Assembly (NCBI GenBank): GCA_012799185.1
Contig: JAAZLS010000079.1
Location: forward strand, 1-42,178
From: Bacillota bacterium
GTDB lineage: Bacteria; Bacillota; Dethiobacteria; DTU022
Reading direction: 5' to 3'
Length of the DNA stretch: 42,178 bases
Numbering within the stretch: the stretch's first letter is position 1; every line of letters begins with the position of its first letter. The translations under genes were made by a program, and so were the position numbers. The notes beneath the pieces are model-generated. The model made no database searches. It worked only from the letters and a program-made list of their open reading frames with translations, and had not been told where the DNA came from. Shown piece after piece: positions 16,910-39,367 of the stretch.

Positions 16910-17491
16910 TTGATCGGTTATCTTTGGGCGGCGATGATCTGTATTAGCATACTGGTAGCCGGTCTAACAGGAAAGATCGCAGTAATAACACCCAGTATTT
17001 TTTCGGCGGCAGAACAGGCGGTAACACTTGTAATTGGATTAATTAGCGTGATGACCTTCTGGTTGGGCATAATGAAGCTGGTTGAGCACTCAGGATTAAT
17101 CGAAATCATTAAGGTGATCCTGCGTCCCGTAGTACGGCTGCTATTTCCATCGATACCCCGCCACCATCCGGCGATGAATGCGATCCTGATGAATATGAGT
17201 GCCAACCTACTGGGAATGGGAAACGCTGCTACCCCCTTTGGCATCAAGGCCATGGAAGAGATGCAGGAGCTAAATCTGCACCGGGAGAGGGCTTCAGACG
17301 AAATGTGCACCTTTCTGGCTTTGAATACCTCCAGCCTAAGCCTGCTCCCGACTACCGTTATCGGTTTACGGGCGGCCGCCGGTTCATTAAATCCGACCGA
17401 AATTGTTGGCACGACCCTGCTGGCCTCGGCCTGTTCTTGCCTGGCGGCATTGGCGGCGGACCGCCTCCTCCGCCGGTGGGGTAAATTCTGA
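16910..17491 (+). CDS. spmA: Spore maturation protein A
   Basis: MNMSANLLGMGNAATPFGIKAMEEMQELN, nucleoside-recognition (Gate) domain. Confidence 0.95.
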   Translation: MIGYLWAAMICISILVAGLTGKIAVITPSIFSAAEQAVTLVIGLISVMTFWLGIMKLVEHSGLIEIIKVILRPVVRLLFPSIPRHHPAMNAILMNMSANLLGMGNAATPFGIKAMEEMQELNLHRERASDEMCTFLALNTSSLSLLPTTVIGLRAAAGSLNPTEIVGTTLLASACSCLAALAADRLLRRWGKF

Positions 17492-18027
17492 TGATTGCCC
17501 ACCTGGTTGACCTGGTGTCCCAATGGGTTATCCCGATTTTAATTGGGACGGTGATCCTTCTGGCCCTCCGGCGTAAAACAAACATCTTTGATCTTTTCGT
17601 GGAGGGAGCGAAGGAGGGAGTTGGAATGGCTCTCCGGCTCATACCGTTCCTAGTAGGAATCCTGGTGGCGATCGGGCTTTTCCGCGATTCCGGGGCACTG
17701 GAGCTACTGATCGGCGGGCTCTCCCCGTTGCTAGCGAAACTTAACCTCCCCCCGGAAATCATTCCGCTGGCGGTTATGCGCCCTATCTCCGGCAGCGGCG
17801 CCCTGGCTATTACCGCCGAAATAATCCAGCGTGACGGGCCCGACTCATACTTGGGCCGCCTCGCTTCAACCATGCAGGGCAGCACCGATACGACCCTTTT
17901 CGTTTTAACCGTCTATTTTGGGTCGGTCATGATTAAAAAATCCCGCCACGCTCTATTTGCCGGGTTGATCGGGGATTTTTGTGGAATTATCGCCTCAGCC
18001 CTTATTTGCGGGGCGGTATTTAGGTAA
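17491..18027 (+). CDS. spmB: Spore maturation protein B
   Basis: MRPISGSGALAITAEIIQRDGPDSYLGRLASTMQGSTDTTLFVLTVYFGSV. Confidence 0.95.
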   Translation: MIAHLVDLVSQWVIPILIGTVILLALRRKTNIFDLFVEGAKEGVGMALRLIPFLVGILVAIGLFRDSGALELLIGGLSPLLAKLNLPPEIIPLAVMRPISGSGALAITAEIIQRDGPDSYLGRLASTMQGSTDTTLFVLTVYFGSVMIKKSRHALFAGLIGDFCGIIASALICGAVFR

Positions 18028-19459: not shown

Positions 19460-20182
19460 TTGCGTATAACCAAATTTTTGGCCCGAGCGGGGGTGGCCTC
19501 CCGTCGGAAAGCGGATCAACTGATTGCCGGTAACCGGGTAAAAATTAACGGGGTTATTGTTACAAAACCTTTTACCCGGGTTAATCCCGGAGATAAGGTA
19601 ACGGTAGACGGGACCAGGGTATTTAGGCCGGAGCCTAAAGCCTATCTTTTATTGGACAAGCCCCCCGGTTATCTATCTACTGTAAGTGATCCCCATGGTC
19701 GCAAGACGGTTATGCATCTGCTGCCTGATAGGGAGACCAGGCTTTACCCGGCAGGACGTCTGGATGCGGATTCGGAGGGGCTGTTATTGATGACTAATGA
19801 TGGCGAACTGGCCTATCGGTTAACTCACCCCCGGTTCCAAGTTCCCAAAACCTACCGGGTTTTGGTGGAGGGGGTTCCTACCGGAGAAAAATTAAAGCAA
19901 ATGCGCAGCGGCTTAGAGTTGGAGGGCACGCTTACCGCTCCGGCAAAGGTTAAACTGCTTAAACCCGGAGGGTCCCGGCGCTCCTGGCTGGAGATTACAA
20001 TTCACGAGGGACGAAAAAGACAGGTTAAAAAAATGTGTGCCTCTATTGGGCACCCGGTTATTAAACTACGGCGAACAAAATTTGCCCTATTGACCGCCCG
20101 CGGGCTTCGGGTGGGGCACTATCGGCGGTTAACCGTTTCCGAAATAAAGCAGCTTTATCGCCTGGTGGGTCTCCCGGGCTAG
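19460..20182 (+). CDS. rluB: Ribosomal large subunit pseudouridine synthase B family
   Basis: S4 domain MRITKFLARAGVASRRKADQLI; PAGRLDADSEGLLLMTNDGELAYRLTHPRF. Confidence 0.93.
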   Translation: MRITKFLARAGVASRRKADQLIAGNRVKINGVIVTKPFTRVNPGDKVTVDGTRVFRPEPKAYLLLDKPPGYLSTVSDPHGRKTVMHLLPDRETRLYPAGRLDADSEGLLLMTNDGELAYRLTHPRFQVPKTYRVLVEGVPTGEKLKQMRSGLELEGTLTAPAKVKLLKPGGSRRSWLEITIHEGRKRQVKKMCASIGHPVIKLRRTKFALLTARGLRVGHYRRLTVSEIKQLYRLVGLPG

Positions 20183-20255: not shown

Positions 20256-20261
20256 GCAGTT

Positions 20262-20450
20262 AACGCTAGCCCTTGCAGGTGCTGTCGTTTAGTTAATAGG
20301 GAAACAGGTGCAAATCCTGTGCGGTCGCGCCACTGTAACCGGGATCCGGGGCCGGTTAACCACTCTGCCCGAAGGGCGGGGGAAGGGGGCCTCGGGGATG
20401 AATGGGAGCCAGGAAACCTGCCTGCAGGCAACGTACTTACCCTTCGCGAA
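20262..20450 (+). ncRNA. Cobalamin (AdoCbl/B12) riboswitch aptamer
   Basis: Conserved core ATAGGGAAACAGGTGCAAATCCTGTGCGGTCGCGCCACTGTAACC and B12 box AGCCAGGAAACCTGCC (20407-20422), upstream of B12 transporter genes. Confidence 0.95.
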
Positions 20451-21492: not shown

Positions 21493-22521
21493 ATGCGGGG
21501 CAAGAAGTTAACCTTACTTTTTATACTGGCCGGTCTTTGCCTACTTATGATGTTTTTTTCGATCGGGATCGGGGCGGTGCCTATCGCCCCCCAAAAAACG
21601 GTACAGGTGCTAATTAAGCATTGTACTCATCCTCCGTTATCGGTGCCGGTTGATACGACAGGGGCGATAATCTGGCAGCTTCGCTTGCCCCGCATTATAC
21701 TGGGGTTTTTGGTGGGGGCCTCCCTGGCGGTGGCCGGGACATCGTTTCAAGGCCTGCTCCGAAATCCCCTGGCCGATCCCTATACCCTGGGTGTCTCCAG
21801 CGGGGCTGCCCTGGGGGCTACCGCCGCCATGCTGTTTATTCCGCAGGGGAGTATAAGTTTATCCTTTTCTATTCCCCTTTTCGGATTTGCCGGAGGCTTA
21901 CTGGCTTTATTAATTGTTTACCGCCTGGGTAGGGTCGGCGGCCGCCTACCGGTAGTCACCGTCCTGCTGGCGGGGGTGATCATTAGCTCGTTTTTCTCCG
22001 CCTTAATTTCGCTAGGGATGATCTTTGCGGGCCAACAACTTCGCAGTATCTACTTCTGGCTGGCCGGCGGCCTGGCTTTAAAGGGATGGCCGTACGTGGT
22101 CTTAATTATTCCATACTTTATAGTCGGCTTGTTAGTACTCCTATACTATGCCGGTGATTTAAATATAATTTTGCTTGGTGAGGAGAGCGCCCTTAGCTCG
22201 GGGGTAGAGGTGGAGAAGGTAAAAAAGGTAGTGCTGGTTGCAGCCTCCTTGGTGACTGCCGGGGCGGTCTCGGTTAGCGGTATGATCGGTTTTGTGGGGT
22301 TAATTGTACCCCATGCCATGCGAATAATAATGGGCCCCGATCACCGCCTGCTGCTTCCGGCGGCGGCTTTGGGAGGGGGGCTCTTCCTGGTGGCGGTAGA
22401 TACCGCCGCCCGGACTGTGCTCGCCCCGGTGGAGATACCGGTGGGAATCGTTACCGCATTTTTAGGAGCCCCTTTCTTTATTATATTGCTGCGGCGTTAC
22501 CGTGATCAATACCGGTTTTAA
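21493..22521 (+). CDS. btuC: Cobalamin ABC transporter permease
   Basis: LRLPRIILGFLVGASLAVAGTSFQGLLRNPLADPYTLGVSSGAALGA; VSGMIGFVGLIVPHAMRIIMGPDHRLLLP (FecCD family). Confidence 0.95.
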   Translation: MRGKKLTLLFILAGLCLLMMFFSIGIGAVPIAPQKTVQVLIKHCTHPPLSVPVDTTGAIIWQLRLPRIILGFLVGASLAVAGTSFQGLLRNPLADPYTLGVSSGAALGATAAMLFIPQGSISLSFSIPLFGFAGGLLALLIVYRLGRVGGRLPVVTVLLAGVIISSFFSALISLGMIFAGQQLRSIYFWLAGGLALKGWPYVVLIIPYFIVGLLVLLYYAGDLNIILLGEESALSSGVEVEKVKKVVLVAASLVTAGAVSVSGMIGFVGLIVPHAMRIIMGPDHRLLLPAAALGGGLFLVAVDTAARTVLAPVEIPVGIVTAFLGAPFFIILLRRYRDQYRF

Positions 22522-22534
22522 GGCAGGTGAGAGG

Positions 22535-23806
22535 ATGGCCGTTGGCATTAAGATCCGTGAACTCTGTTTTAGTTACGGTTCCCAAGAGGTACTTAGTGAA
22601 ATAAATATGGTGGTAAAGCCGGGAGATTTTATTGGGATAGTAGGGCCAAACGGCAGCGGCAAATCAACCTTACTTAAAAATATGGCCGCCCTATTGCGCC
22701 CCACCCGGGGGGCGATAGAGATTAACTCAACTGGAATTGAAGATTATAAGCGGTTGGAACTGGCCCGGCTAATAGCCCTGGTCGGCCAGGATCAACAGCC
22801 TGGTTTTAATTTTCAAGTTGAAGAGGTGGTTTATACCGGTAGATATCCCTACAAAGAAAGGTTCCGTCCACCGGCAGGGGTGGATCGGCAGGCGGTGGAG
22901 CGGGCGATGTACCTGACCGGTTGCTACCACTTAAAAGATCGGGATCTCTTCTCTCTGAGCGGCGGAGAACGCCAGCGGGTCTTCCTGGCCCGGGCACTGG
23001 CCCAGGAAACACCGGTATTATTGCTAGATGAACCGACTGCATTTTTAGATATGGGCTACCAGGTGGAGCTGTTACAGCTTCTACAAGGGCTAAATCTAAG
23101 GGAAAAATTGACGGTGGTAGCGGTAATGCATGATTTAAACCTGGCCTCCCGCTACAGCCGAAAGCTGGTTATGCTAAATCGGGGAAAGATATTTGCCCGG
23201 GGTTCTCCGGAAGAGGTTTTAACCAGGGACCATATTTTAGAGGTATACCGGACGGAGGTGCTCCTTGAACCCCACCCGATGGGGGGCCCCCCCCAGATAA
23301 TTCCTATCTCTCCGCCAACCGGCAGGAAAGGCCGTGAGCGGGGCAGAAAGATTCACGTTATCGGAGGAGGAGGCAGCGCCACCGGGATCATTAACCAGCT
23401 GTTTCTAAAAGGGTTGACCCCTTCGGCCGGGGTTCTAAGTATTGGGGATAGTGATTGGGTTACCGCCCGTCGGTTGGGGTTAGAGATGGTGGAAGAGTCA
23501 CCATTCTCACCGATTGGCCTGGAGCAGCACCGGAAAAACCTGGGCCTGGTGGCCGACGCTTCATTGGTGGTGCTCGCCCCCCTCTTCCTGGGGCCGGGCA
23601 ACCTGTTAAATATTGAGGCGGCTCTATGGGGCCTGGAGGAGGGCAAAACGGTACTGGTCTTGGAACCTTCTTCAGCTGGGCGGCGGGATTTTACTGGGGG
23701 GCCGGGGGGGAAACTTTATCAACGTTTGGTGGAAGGTGGAGCCCTACTCATGGAGCAGTTTGATTTAGAGAAGATCGATGCCTTACTGGCAACCGGAGCG
23801 GGTTAA
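22535..23806 (+). CDS. btuD: Cobalamin ABC transporter ATP-binding protein with about 155-aa C-terminal Rossmann-like extension
   Basis: Walker A GPNGSGKST, LSGGERQRVFLARALAQ, Walker B VLLLDEP. Extension starts near GRKIHVIGGGGSATGIINQLFLKG. Confidence 0.9.
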   Translation: MAVGIKIRELCFSYGSQEVLSEINMVVKPGDFIGIVGPNGSGKSTLLKNMAALLRPTRGAIEINSTGIEDYKRLELARLIALVGQDQQPGFNFQVEEVVYTGRYPYKERFRPPAGVDRQAVERAMYLTGCYHLKDRDLFSLSGGERQRVFLARALAQETPVLLLDEPTAFLDMGYQVELLQLLQGLNLREKLTVVAVMHDLNLASRYSRKLVMLNRGKIFARGSPEEVLTRDHILEVYRTEVLLEPHPMGGPPQIIPISPPTGRKGRERGRKIHVIGGGGSATGIINQLFLKGLTPSAGVLSIGDSDWVTARRLGLEMVEESPFSPIGLEQHRKNLGLVADASLVVLAPLFLGPGNLLNIEAALWGLEEGKTVLVLEPSSAGRRDFTGGPGGKLYQRLVEGGALLMEQFDLEKIDALLATGAG

Positions 23807-23828: not shown

Positions 23829-23857
23829 GCAGGATTTTGCAACTACTTATCGAATTT
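23829..23857 (+). promoter_or_regulatory. Predicted sigma-H promoter: GCAGGATTT-N11-ATCGAATTT
   Basis: All constrained positions match RnAGGAwWW-N11/12-RnnGAATww; located about 70 bp upstream of the 168-aa ORF. Confidence 0.7.
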
Positions 23858-23927
23858 AGCCTAAGGCTTAAAAGGCTGTTTATTTAAGATAAACGGAAGA
23901 TTCTATATAAATTAGGAGTTAGGGGAA

Positions 23928-24434
23928 ATGGAGATGCAGATCACGCAGGCCCATCCCAGGCATTTGGAAACAGGTATCGTCGGTGATGGGGTAAAAAAAG
24001 AAAAAATGGCGGAACAGCCGGCTAAAATAAGGGTACGCATTCGTTTTGATTACCGGGGTACACCCCGGCCGGCCCGGTTTTTTTTCGGGGGAAAGGGAAC
24101 CAAAGAGGTGGCTGAGGAGCGCCGGGAACAACAGGCTACCATGTGGAGGAATGTTCCCCTACAGGGGATCCGGGTGGAAGATATCGCCTTCCTGGAACTA
24201 TATTCGGTATATGAAGATGAGGAGGAGGGTGAGATTACCTATGCCCCGCTGGAGCTATTAATATCCCTTGATTCCCTGGAAGACAGCCTGCAGTTCATCA
24301 GCCGTGATGAATTTAAATGCTTGGAGGTTATTGAACCAGATCGAGTTAATTTAACCGGCCGTGAATTGGAACGGATTCTTTACCGGTTTAGTGTGACTCT
24401 TCAGCACAAACTGCAAGAAAGGGAGGATGTTTAG
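23928..24434 (+). CDS. Uncharacterised 168-aa protein
   Basis: Good SD (AGGAGTTAGGGGAA) and clean ORF with acidic/basic soluble composition; no family recognised. Confidence 0.75.
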   Translation: MEMQITQAHPRHLETGIVGDGVKKEKMAEQPAKIRVRIRFDYRGTPRPARFFFGGKGTKEVAEERREQQATMWRNVPLQGIRVEDIAFLELYSVYEDEEEGEITYAPLELLISLDSLEDSLQFISRDEFKCLEVIEPDRVNLTGRELERILYRFSVTLQHKLQEREDV

Positions 24435-24496
24435 CAGGGCGGGCTGGGAAGTGTATAAAATTTCCCCCTTAACATAAAATTTAGCGGGGGAAAAAG

Positions 24497-24697
24497 ATGA
24501 ATCGATGGCAACGCTGGTTTTATAACCTTTCATCGGGGGTGGAGCGGTTTTTATGGGGCTCCCTGCTCTTGCTGTTAATTCTTACCATGGCTGGACAGGC
24601 TTTACTGGGCCTGGAGATGGGACGCCGTTTGCTAAACCCGGTTGAATCGTTGGAAGGTATACCCTGGCCCCCGGAGCCGGGGCCCGATCCGGGTTAG
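24497..24697 (+). CDS. Small single-TM membrane protein (66 aa), possibly YpfB/DUF5359-like by position
   Basis: MNRWQRWFYNLSSGVERFLWGSLLLLLILTMAGQALLG...; sits upstream of cmk/plsC as ypfB does in B. subtilis. Confidence 0.6.
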   Translation: MNRWQRWFYNLSSGVERFLWGSLLLLLILTMAGQALLGLEMGRRLLNPVESLEGIPWPPEPGPDPG

Positions 24698-24760: not shown

Positions 24761-25135
24761 ATGACTTTGGTTAGAGGGATCAGGGGAGCAATTACCGTCC
24801 CGGCTAATGATGACGGCGAAATTATTAAAGCTACCCAGCTACTCTTGAAGAAAATGATGGAAGCAAATTGCTTGGAAATAGATAATTTGGCTGCAGTCTT
24901 ATTTTCATCTACTGTCGACCTTAACCGGGCCTTTCCGGCCCGGGCAGCCCGAATGTTGGGATGGAAGCATGTCCCCTTGATGTGCCAGGTGGAAATAGAT
25001 GTTCCCGGGGCCCTGCCGCGCTGTATCCGAGTGCTGATGCTGGTTAACACCGAGCTAAAGCCGGAGGAGGTGCGGCATATCTATTTAGGGGAGGCCCGGC
25101 TATTAAGAGAAGATCTTTTGGCGGACGGGCAATAG
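24761..25135 (+). CDS. aroH: Chorismate mutase, AroH type
   Basis: RGIRGAITVPANDDGEIIKATQLLLKKMM...AAVLFSSTVDLNRAFPARAARMLGW. Confidence 0.94.
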   Translation: MTLVRGIRGAITVPANDDGEIIKATQLLLKKMMEANCLEIDNLAAVLFSSTVDLNRAFPARAARMLGWKHVPLMCQVEIDVPGALPRCIRVLMLVNTELKPEEVRHIYLGEARLLREDLLADGQ

Positions 25136-25220
25136 AGTGGATTTTTGCTGACAGGTTTAAATATTTCTTTTAATAATAATTTAAAAAGGGAATTTTTACT
25201 TTTACCTCGAAATTACTATT

Positions 25221-25919
25221 ATGAAACCAGACAGAAAGATTACAATTGCTATTGACGGGCCGGCGGGGGCCGGGAAAAGTACGGTGGCCCGGGAGGTAGC
25301 CCGACGGCTGGATTTAAAATATCTTGATACGGGAGCCATGTACCGAGCAGTTACCCTGAAGGTTATACGGGCTCAGCTTGCCCTAGATGAACCGGGAGAG
25401 CTGGAAGCTCTCCTAGGGGAAATAAAAATAGAATTTGGTACCGGGGAAGGCGACGGCAAGGTCTTTTTGAACGGGGAGGATGTTACCGCTGAGATTCGGG
25501 GGGTGCCGGTAAATAAAAGGGTTTCCGAAGTCTCATCTATCTCCATGGTTCGAAAAAAGATGGTTGCCCTACAACGAGAGATTGCCGTCCGTTCCCGGGG
25601 CATAGTGGTGGAGGGTCGCGATATCTGTTCCCGGGTGCTTCCGGAGGCAGATTTCAAGTTTTACCTTGAGGCCCGGCTCTCCGAAAGGGCGCTCCGACGT
25701 TGGAAAGAACAGGTGGCCGGTGGGATGAAGGTATCGCTTGGGCAGGTTCAGGATGCTATTAAGATGCGCGACAGTATTGATTCCCAACGACGGGATTCGC
25801 CGCTGACAGTTGCTCCCGGGGTAACGGTAATCGATACGACAGAACTAAGTTTGGAAGCGGTTATCAATAAGGTGTTGAGCATAGTTAATGTTGGTGGGAC
25901 GGCGGTGGAGGGGGAGTAA
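25221..25919 (+). CDS. cmk: Cytidylate kinase
   Basis: IAIDGPAGAGKSTVAREVARRLDLKYLDTGAMYRAVT; VVEGRDICSRVLPEADFKFYLEA. Confidence 0.96.
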   Translation: MKPDRKITIAIDGPAGAGKSTVAREVARRLDLKYLDTGAMYRAVTLKVIRAQLALDEPGELEALLGEIKIEFGTGEGDGKVFLNGEDVTAEIRGVPVNKRVSEVSSISMVRKKMVALQREIAVRSRGIVVEGRDICSRVLPEADFKFYLEARLSERALRRWKEQVAGGMKVSLGQVQDAIKMRDSIDSQRRDSPLTVAPGVTVIDTTELSLEAVINKVLSIVNVGGTAVEGE

Positions 25920-37891: not shown

Positions 37892-39367
37892 ATGGAGTAT
37901 GATCTGTTTAATGATCTGGTGGAACGTACCGGGGGCGATATTTATTTAGGTGTGGTCGGCCCGGTCCGAACTGGCAAATCGACCTTTATTCGCAAATTCA
38001 TGGAGCTATTTGTCTTACCTAAAATAGATGATCCTTTAGAGCTTGAGCGAATCCGTGATGAACTTCCCCAGGGAAGCATGGGAAAAACTATTATGACCAC
38101 CGAACCCAAGTTTGTACCCGATGAGGCGGTGGAGATCATCGTGGGCGAAAATATATCCATGAACATTAGGATGGTCGATTGTGTAGGATACACCGTAGAG
38201 GGTGCCGCCGGGTATGAAGATGAGGAAGGGCCCCGCATGGTTTCCACTCCCTGGTTTGATTACGATATCCCCTTCCAGGAGGCGGCCGAGACGGGCACCC
38301 GCAAGGTAATTGAGGATCATTCTACGATCGGAATTGTGGTCACTACGGATGGCACGATTGCCGATATACCCCGGGAAAATTATCAGGAGGCCGAGGAAAG
38401 GGTAATTTCGGAGCTGAAGGAGTTGGGAAAACCGTTCGTAGTGCTAATTAACTCCATCCACCCGGGGGCGGAAGAAACTCGGGCCCTTCAAGGTGAACTG
38501 GCCGGGCTCTATGATGTGCCGGTTATCCTTTTAAATTGCATGGAACTTAGCCAGGGCGATCTATCCCTAATATTGGAAGAGGCACTTTACGAGTTCCCGG
38601 TGCGGGATGTTACCGTGCGGTTGGCTCCCTGGGTAGAGGCGCTGGAGACGGGGCACTGGCTTAAATATAGTTACGATGAAAGTATTGATGAAAATGTGGC
38701 AAGTGTAAACCGGGTTCGGGAGGTTAACAGCCTAGTCGAAAAATTTAGGGAGTATTCCTTTATAGAGGAGGCCACCCTAAGCCGAATTGATCTTGGAAAA
38801 GGCGAGGTTGAAATAGAGCTTAGACCCCCCGCCGGATTATTTGAGAAGATACTAACTGAATACAGCGGGGAAGAGATAACAGGCGATGGCGACATACTGA
38901 GGGTAGTGCGAGACTATTCCTATGCCAAGCGCGAATATGACAAGGTGGCGGAGGCGCTTTACCAGGTTAACGAAGTCGGGTACGGAATAGTACCGCCGGT
39001 ACTGGAGGAAATGGCCCTGGAAGAGCCGGAAATTATCCGCCAGGGAGGGCGATTCGGGGTAAGGTTGCGGGCCAGCGCCCCCTCATTACATATTGTGCGG
39101 GTAGATGTAAAATCGGAATTTGCCCCGGTGGTCGGTTCGGAGCGGCAGAGCGAAGAACTGGTGGGTTATCTCCTGGAAGAATTTGAAGAAAACCCAAAAA
39201 AAATATGGGAATCGCAAATATTTGGTAAATCCCTCCATGAGCTGGTTCAGGACGGCATTACCGGGAAATTAGGCAACATGCCCCCCAATGCCCAGGAAAA
39301 GCTTCAGGAAACATTGGAGAAAATTGTTAATGAAGGAAGCGGTGGGCTCATAGCGATTATCCTTTAA
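37892..39367 (+). CDS. spoIVA: Stage IV sporulation protein A (spore coat ATPase)
   Basis: DIYLGVVGPVRTGKSTFIRKFMELFVLP, GSMGKTIMTTEPKFVPDEAVEI, DCVGYTVEGAAGYEDEEGPRMVSTPWFD. Confidence 0.97.
   Translation: MEYDLFNDLVERTGGDIYLGVVGPVRTGKSTFIRKFMELFVLPKIDDPLELERIRDELPQGSMGKTIMTTEPKFVPDEAVEIIVGENISMNIRMVDCVGYTVEGAAGYEDEEGPRMVSTPWFDYDIPFQEAAETGTRKVIEDHSTIGIVVTTDGTIADIPRENYQEAEERVISELKELGKPFVVLINSIHPGAEETRALQGELAGLYDVPVILLNCMELSQGDLSLILEEALYEFPVRDVTVRLAPWVEALETGHWLKYSYDESIDENVASVNRVREVNSLVEKFREYSFIEEATLSRIDLGKGEVEIELRPPAGLFEKILTEYSGEEITGDGDILRVVRDYSYAKREYDKVAEALYQVNEVGYGIVPPVLEEMALEEPEIIRQGGRFGVRLRASAPSLHIVRVDVKSEFAPVVGSERQSEELVGYLLEEFEENPKKIWESQIFGKSLHELVQDGITGKLGNMPPNAQEKLQETLEKIVNEGSGGLIAIIL

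Follow-up and report, generated by a model that had tools for sequence, protein, structure and literature searches.

The stretch of DNA analysed here (the window; 42,178 nt) contains a gene coding for a 168-aa protein, P0001, which is preceded by a predicted sigma-H promoter and followed by a gene whose product, a small membrane protein, is related to YpfB. Taken jointly, a sigma-H promoter, a new protein family and a sporulation-linked gene unit make up the reading that we consider probable. Sigma-H is the master switch at the start of sporulation. By gene content the uncultured source organism is a spore former, since its genome encodes SigH (360 bits; cut-off 294.8), SigE (398 bits) and SpoIVA, the gene for the latter lying on the same contig as P0001. 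The features referred to in the text are these:

16910–18027 (+), two Gate-domain proteins in the spmA/spmB position, named by position and domain
19460–20182 (+), rluB/rsuA-type pseudouridine synthase, a conserved flank
22502–23806 (+), corrinoid/iron-type ABC ATPase (BtuD-like), the upstream neighbour, which stops 22 nt before the -35 element
23829–23837 (+), -35 element of the predicted sigma-H promoter, GCAGGATTT; exact consensus, near-invariant across orthologues
23849–23857 (+), -10 element of the predicted sigma-H promoter, ATCGAATTT; exact consensus, its GAAT near-invariant across orthologues
23863–23868 (+), predicted transcription start, placed from the position of the -10 element alone
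23914–23918 (+), AGGAG, probable ribosome-binding site, as read from the sequence
23928–24434 (+), P0001 (168 aa), member of an unnamed protein family, with orthologues; AlphaFold2 model, pLDDT 86.8
24497–24697 (+), 66-aa single-pass membrane protein, a short form of the YpfB/DUF5359-like partner
24761–25135 (+), aroH, chorismate mutase type I (TIGR01796, PF07736)
25148–25177 (+), sigma-70-like site upstream of cmk, a consensus match not above chance
25221–25919 (+), cmk, (d)CMP kinase, a flank kept in asporogenous relatives
37892–39367 (+), spoIVA, sporulation marker (TIGR02836, 762 bits)

An earlier note on this DNA had described a sigma-H promoter matching the full consensus with an 11-nt spacer, and both the coordinates and the match proved exact. 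The two elements agree with RnAGGAwWW/RnnGAATww at all constrained positions; the spacer between them, TGCAACTACTT, is 11 nt long, within the 11–12 nt expected, and the distance between the AGGA and GAAT cores is 17 nt. This consensus is the established one for sigma-H of Bacillus subtilis. It agrees with the AGGA-17/18-GAAT arrangement of sigma-H promoters in Sporomusa (PMC12456013). When both strands of the window were scanned, GCAGGATTT-N11-ATCGAATTT was the sole exact match, where chance would provide 0.02–0.025 per window (about 2e-5 per 100 nt on one strand). Across the 1.54-Mb genome the strict motif in its GCAGGA form was counted five times and the reversed control not once; that control is imperfect, because GCAGGA is frequent in coding sequence too. 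All five sites are intergenic, with the -35 element 43–100 nt ahead of a co-oriented ORF; these ORFs code for an lgt-like protein, a NuoE-like subunit, P0001, a LemA-family protein and formate-tetrahydrofolate ligase (fhs). The four sites other than that of P0001 (L031–L034) echo the metabolic SigH regulon of Sporomusa. In relatives, some strict-motif matches resemble coding sequence, as judged by eye, and a GGnTAnAATA-like second element was spotted, also by eye, downstream of the -10 element in some of them.

The conservation of the promoter was analysed in 80 loci fetched from Dethiobacter, Desulfotomaculum-type, Syntrophomonas-type, Thermincola and Desulfosporosinus genomes, the 200 nt upstream of each orthologue being scanned. 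Of the 80 regions, 57 contained the motif with no more than one mismatch (20 exact, 37 with one mismatch); in shuffled regions it appeared 25 times in 1600 at one mismatch and never as an exact match. Exact matches reached a density of 1.25 per kb upstream of the orthologues and 0.005 per kb elsewhere in the same loci, where they were about 270 times rarer. Some orthologues lack the motif, as in genome G276 (f87). An alignment of 51 sites deviating from the motif by no more than one nucleotide gave close to 2 bits per position in the core elements, a value inflated by picking the best match per region, and 0.04–0.75 bits in the spacer and flanks; the second position, unconstrained in the consensus, was C in 43 of the 51. 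The classical sigma-H gene spoVG served as a positive control: its upstream regions in these relatives contained the motif, at one mismatch or fewer, in 19 of 29 cases, compared with 6 of 580 shuffles. The source genome itself (97% complete) gave no spoVG match, though most of the f1 relatives searched have the gene. It could be argued that the motif is a chance match kept merely by common descent, the more so as the loci are related by descent and the counts are not independent. However, both elements are near-invariant while similarity in spacer and flanks has been lost, and the spoVG genes of the relatives bear the same motif; a chance origin is extremely improbable and was rejected on the conservation upstream of orthologues. 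This conservation beyond background, the motif at spoVG and the presence of SigH in the genome together support the proposed promoter, and the sequence argues strongly for the site at 23829–23857 being a genuine one.

The ORF behind this promoter is real, as indicated by orthologues in 63 of 100 relatives and in 138 of 399 genomes of the phylum; the alignment of orthologues suggests that translation probably begins at Met3 (23934). The protein had been said to belong to no recognised family, and searches bore this out: P0001 has no Pfam or NCBIfam match and no sequence relative in the PDB, so that assignment to a known family was rejected, and 61 members of its family gave only scattered, chance-level matches to Pfam and NCBIfam. 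AlphaFold2 confidently predicted an alpha/beta fold (mean pLDDT 86.8, with values above 90 in most core blocks), in which a first strand and helix are followed by three strands and a further helix, then by a strand and a last helix. At E ≤0.001, Foldseek returned no PDB structure for this model, nor was anything found at that threshold in a viral structure library; the best PDB matches were ferredoxin-like folds of the bS6 type, with E no better than 1.7e-3 and a TM-score by query of about 0.3. These data support the view that P0001 represents a previously unnamed, widespread protein family. A paralogue of the P0001 domain was observed in f33 (L127 1626-3467 in G396; L128, L129), where it is the N-terminal part of a 613-aa protein and is fused to a membrane domain of the DUF1616 type; the gene adjoining this fusion codes for Fe-S cluster and CCG-type motifs. 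In three spoIVA-bearing genomes of f92 (G268, G372, G426) the P0001-family copies contain in-frame stops and are possibly decaying.

The gene order around P0001 is usually ytfJ, D-Ala-D-Ala carboxypeptidase, two Gate-domain proteins, rluB, P0001, the membrane protein, aroH, cmk, plsC and ispH-rpsA. In the window, rluB and P0001 are separated by a BtuFCD-type operon. It is headed by a cobalamin riboswitch (20260–20439, +; Rfam RF00174, 96 bits) and ends just before the promoter. A tRNA gene lies near the end of the contig (41889–41962, -). P0001 is located ahead of a ypfB-like gene and cmk, that is, in the slot occupied in Bacilli by ypfA, which codes for a PilZ c-di-GMP receptor; synteny with the ypfA-ypfB-cmk arrangement confirmed the position proposed earlier. 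The claim that P0001 lacks the PilZ motifs RxxxR and DxSxxG needs one correction, as an RxxxR string is present (RFDYR), but the PilZ order of RxxxR followed by [DN]x[SG]xxG was found in none of the 61 family members. Further, Pfam searches and hhalign (probability 0.1%) detected no PilZ or PilZNR domain in P0001, and no PilZ structure appeared among the best 50 PDB matches of its model. The true ypfA neighbours in Bacilli-like loci do score against PF07238 and PF12945, and three Bacilli-like genomes show a PepSY-type gene, a PilZ gene, a YpfB-like gene and cmk. Homology of P0001 to PilZ proteins or YpfA was rejected on the absence of the signature and the hhalign value.

The gene for the membrane partner was found at most 2.5 kb downstream of the P0001 orthologue in 49 of the 80 loci, and 30 of the 80 had none nearby. 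The protein is usually about 170 aa long and comprises a single membrane helix and an outer beta domain (AlphaFold2 pLDDT 82.9), but in the window it has only 66 aa; it occurs both in a short form (about 66 aa) and in a long form, which has the outer domain (window; L050–L119). Its model gave no structural match in the PDB at E ≤0.001. Profile comparison with a YpfB-like protein of Bacilli indicated similarity (hhalign 96.3%, E 1.7e-9), the Bacilli target itself scoring 21.7 of 25 bits on DUF5359. The Pfam gathering score for DUF5359 (PF17313) was not reached by the partner family: the window copy gave no match and the best relative 21.6 of 25 bits. DUF5359 was not mentioned in the literature searched. 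ypfB has been listed as a stage III–VI gene of most bacilli and of no clostridia (PMC3533761); the partner family extends it to Dethiobacter, Desulfotomaculum-like and Desulfosporosinus bacteria. Ahead of the start of the membrane protein gene, a short inverted repeat (24440–24497), TTTCCCCC...GGGGGAAA, could mask its ribosome-binding site.

The distribution of both genes was studied in 399 genomes of the phylum at least 90% complete, a sample whose counts are not phylogenetically independent. The P0001 family was present in 138, of which 135 contained spoIVA (p 1.4e-8), and the membrane partner in 168, of which 166 contained it (p 8e-13). The P0001 family was missing from 205 of 340 spoIVA-bearing genomes, and is therefore not a core component. 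A large clade within f1 has no spoIVA; each of the 14 fetched members with rluB and cmk on one contig had kept these flanks and lacked both genes. The asporogenous f1 genomes keep rluB-(aroH)-cmk and lack exactly P0001 and the YpfB-like gene. The tree places this joint loss in one clade, as a single event, so that a count of many events was rejected. In G013, an incomplete genome outside this clade, the partner was still visible at the contig edge. Four genomes (G050, G055, G065 and G477) keep P0001 without spoIVA, their SigE scores being only at the level of housekeeping sigma factors; the membrane partner was not found near P0001 in any of the four. The motif is weaker in the first three, and is missing in G477 and in its spoIVA-bearing sister G276. 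The lack of a spoIVA match in G167 is probably an assembly gap, because SigE is present there. The association with sporulation genes is strong, with these four exceptions, and the working idea of strict sporulation specificity was weakened by the asporogenous genomes that keep P0001.

These exceptions bear on the other reading that a sigma-H promoter allows, in which P0001 serves stationary-phase or energy metabolism and its link with spore formers is lineage history. The four asporogenous carriers fit it, as does the retention of SigH in asporogenous relatives, and the other strict sites of the genome precede fhs and the NuoE-like, lgt-like and lemA-like genes. In Sporomusa the SigH regulon is expanded and partly metabolic, with 322 members that include Wood-Ljungdahl genes (PMC12456013); SigH in this group is not specific to sporulation. 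We nevertheless hold this reading to be rather unlikely, since spoIVA accompanies nearly all P0001 carriers, both genes were lost along with sporulation in f1, and the exceptions have no nearby partner and, in three cases, a weaker motif. Taken singly, sporulation explains the distribution of P0001 best, short of proof. The earlier suggestion of an early-sporulation or stationary-phase gene is thus upheld as to the association, which includes the f1 co-loss, but not as to strictness, and early sporulation as such is not established because SigH is kept in asporogenous relatives and its Sporomusa regulon is partly metabolic.

The promoter might alternatively serve mainly the housekeeping run aroH-cmk-plsC-ispH-rpsA, raising or sustaining its expression at the transition, with P0001 as a passenger. 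The genes are co-oriented, their order is kept in many loci, and a scan whose results were not above chance returned no terminator-like site in the interval from P0001 to aroH; since no such site precedes aroH, sigma-H control of cmk-plsC-ispH-rpsA is possible. Asporogenous f1 relatives, however, retain rluB and cmk in the absence of P0001 and its partner, and a sigma-70-like site, itself not above chance, lies ahead of cmk, so we regard this explanation as unlikely; the proposal that the run is partly under sigma-H was left unestablished, neither scan exceeding chance. It is very unlikely that P0001 is a functional stand-in for the c-di-GMP receptor YpfA. The shared slot, with ypfA-ypfB-cmk in three Bacilli-like loci and P0001, a YpfB-like gene, (aroH) and cmk here, speaks for it, but an identical slot is not an identical function, and the family shows none of the PilZ traits looked for in signature, profile or structure.

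In the preferred reading, that of a sporulation-linked unit, the sigma-H promoter would drive P0001 as cells enter stationary phase or sporulation, SigH-dependent transcription being what we infer from its sequence. P0001 and the gene for the single-pass membrane protein related to YpfB (DUF5359) would form a small unit in the ypfA-ypfB place before cmk. The most likely role for P0001 would be that of a cytosolic, ferredoxin-like alpha/beta adaptor or regulator working with its membrane partner early in differentiation; this is a weak step and, suggested by the neighbouring membrane gene and the fusion to DUF1616 alone, a doubtful one. It is quite possible, and we propose it tentatively, that P0001 and an extended YpfB-like protein replace the ypfA-ypfB pair of Bacilli in clostridial-type spore formers, launched by sigma-H early in differentiation. 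If so, the clostridia possess an as yet unrecognised equivalent of a locus thought to be specific to Bacilli, one whose cytosolic component differs. Lists of sporulation genes draw on Bacillus and a small number of clostridia, and a family missing there stays nameless: the P0001 family occurs in about one third of the phylum genomes sampled, its sigma-H promoter is conserved and its place by spore genes is fixed, yet it has no Pfam or NCBIfam entry. For Dethiobacter, Desulfotomaculum-like and Desulfosporosinus bacteria, P0001 is a testable new candidate for a part of the early programme.

Compared with known systems, the promoter resembles the sigma-H promoters of B. subtilis, Clostridioides difficile and Sporomusa in its constrained positions, 11-nt spacer, 17-nt core distance and location before a start codon, but differs in that it is predicted from sequence and its target gene belongs to a family nameless in Pfam and NCBIfam. 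The likeness of P0001 to bS6 and other ferredoxin-like folds, seen in the order of strands and helices of its AlphaFold2 model, is weak and limited to topology, and homology is not claimed. The partner has the transmembrane N-terminal region and the EG motif in common with YpfB/DUF5359 (PF17313), although its family stays below the Pfam gathering score. As regards the ypfA-ypfB-cmk locus of Bacilli, the slot, the order and the succession of a YpfB-related membrane protein and cmk are all alike; in contrast, the first gene here codes for an unrelated alpha/beta protein rather than a PilZ protein, the partner carries an additional extracytoplasmic beta domain in most cases, and aroH often intervenes.
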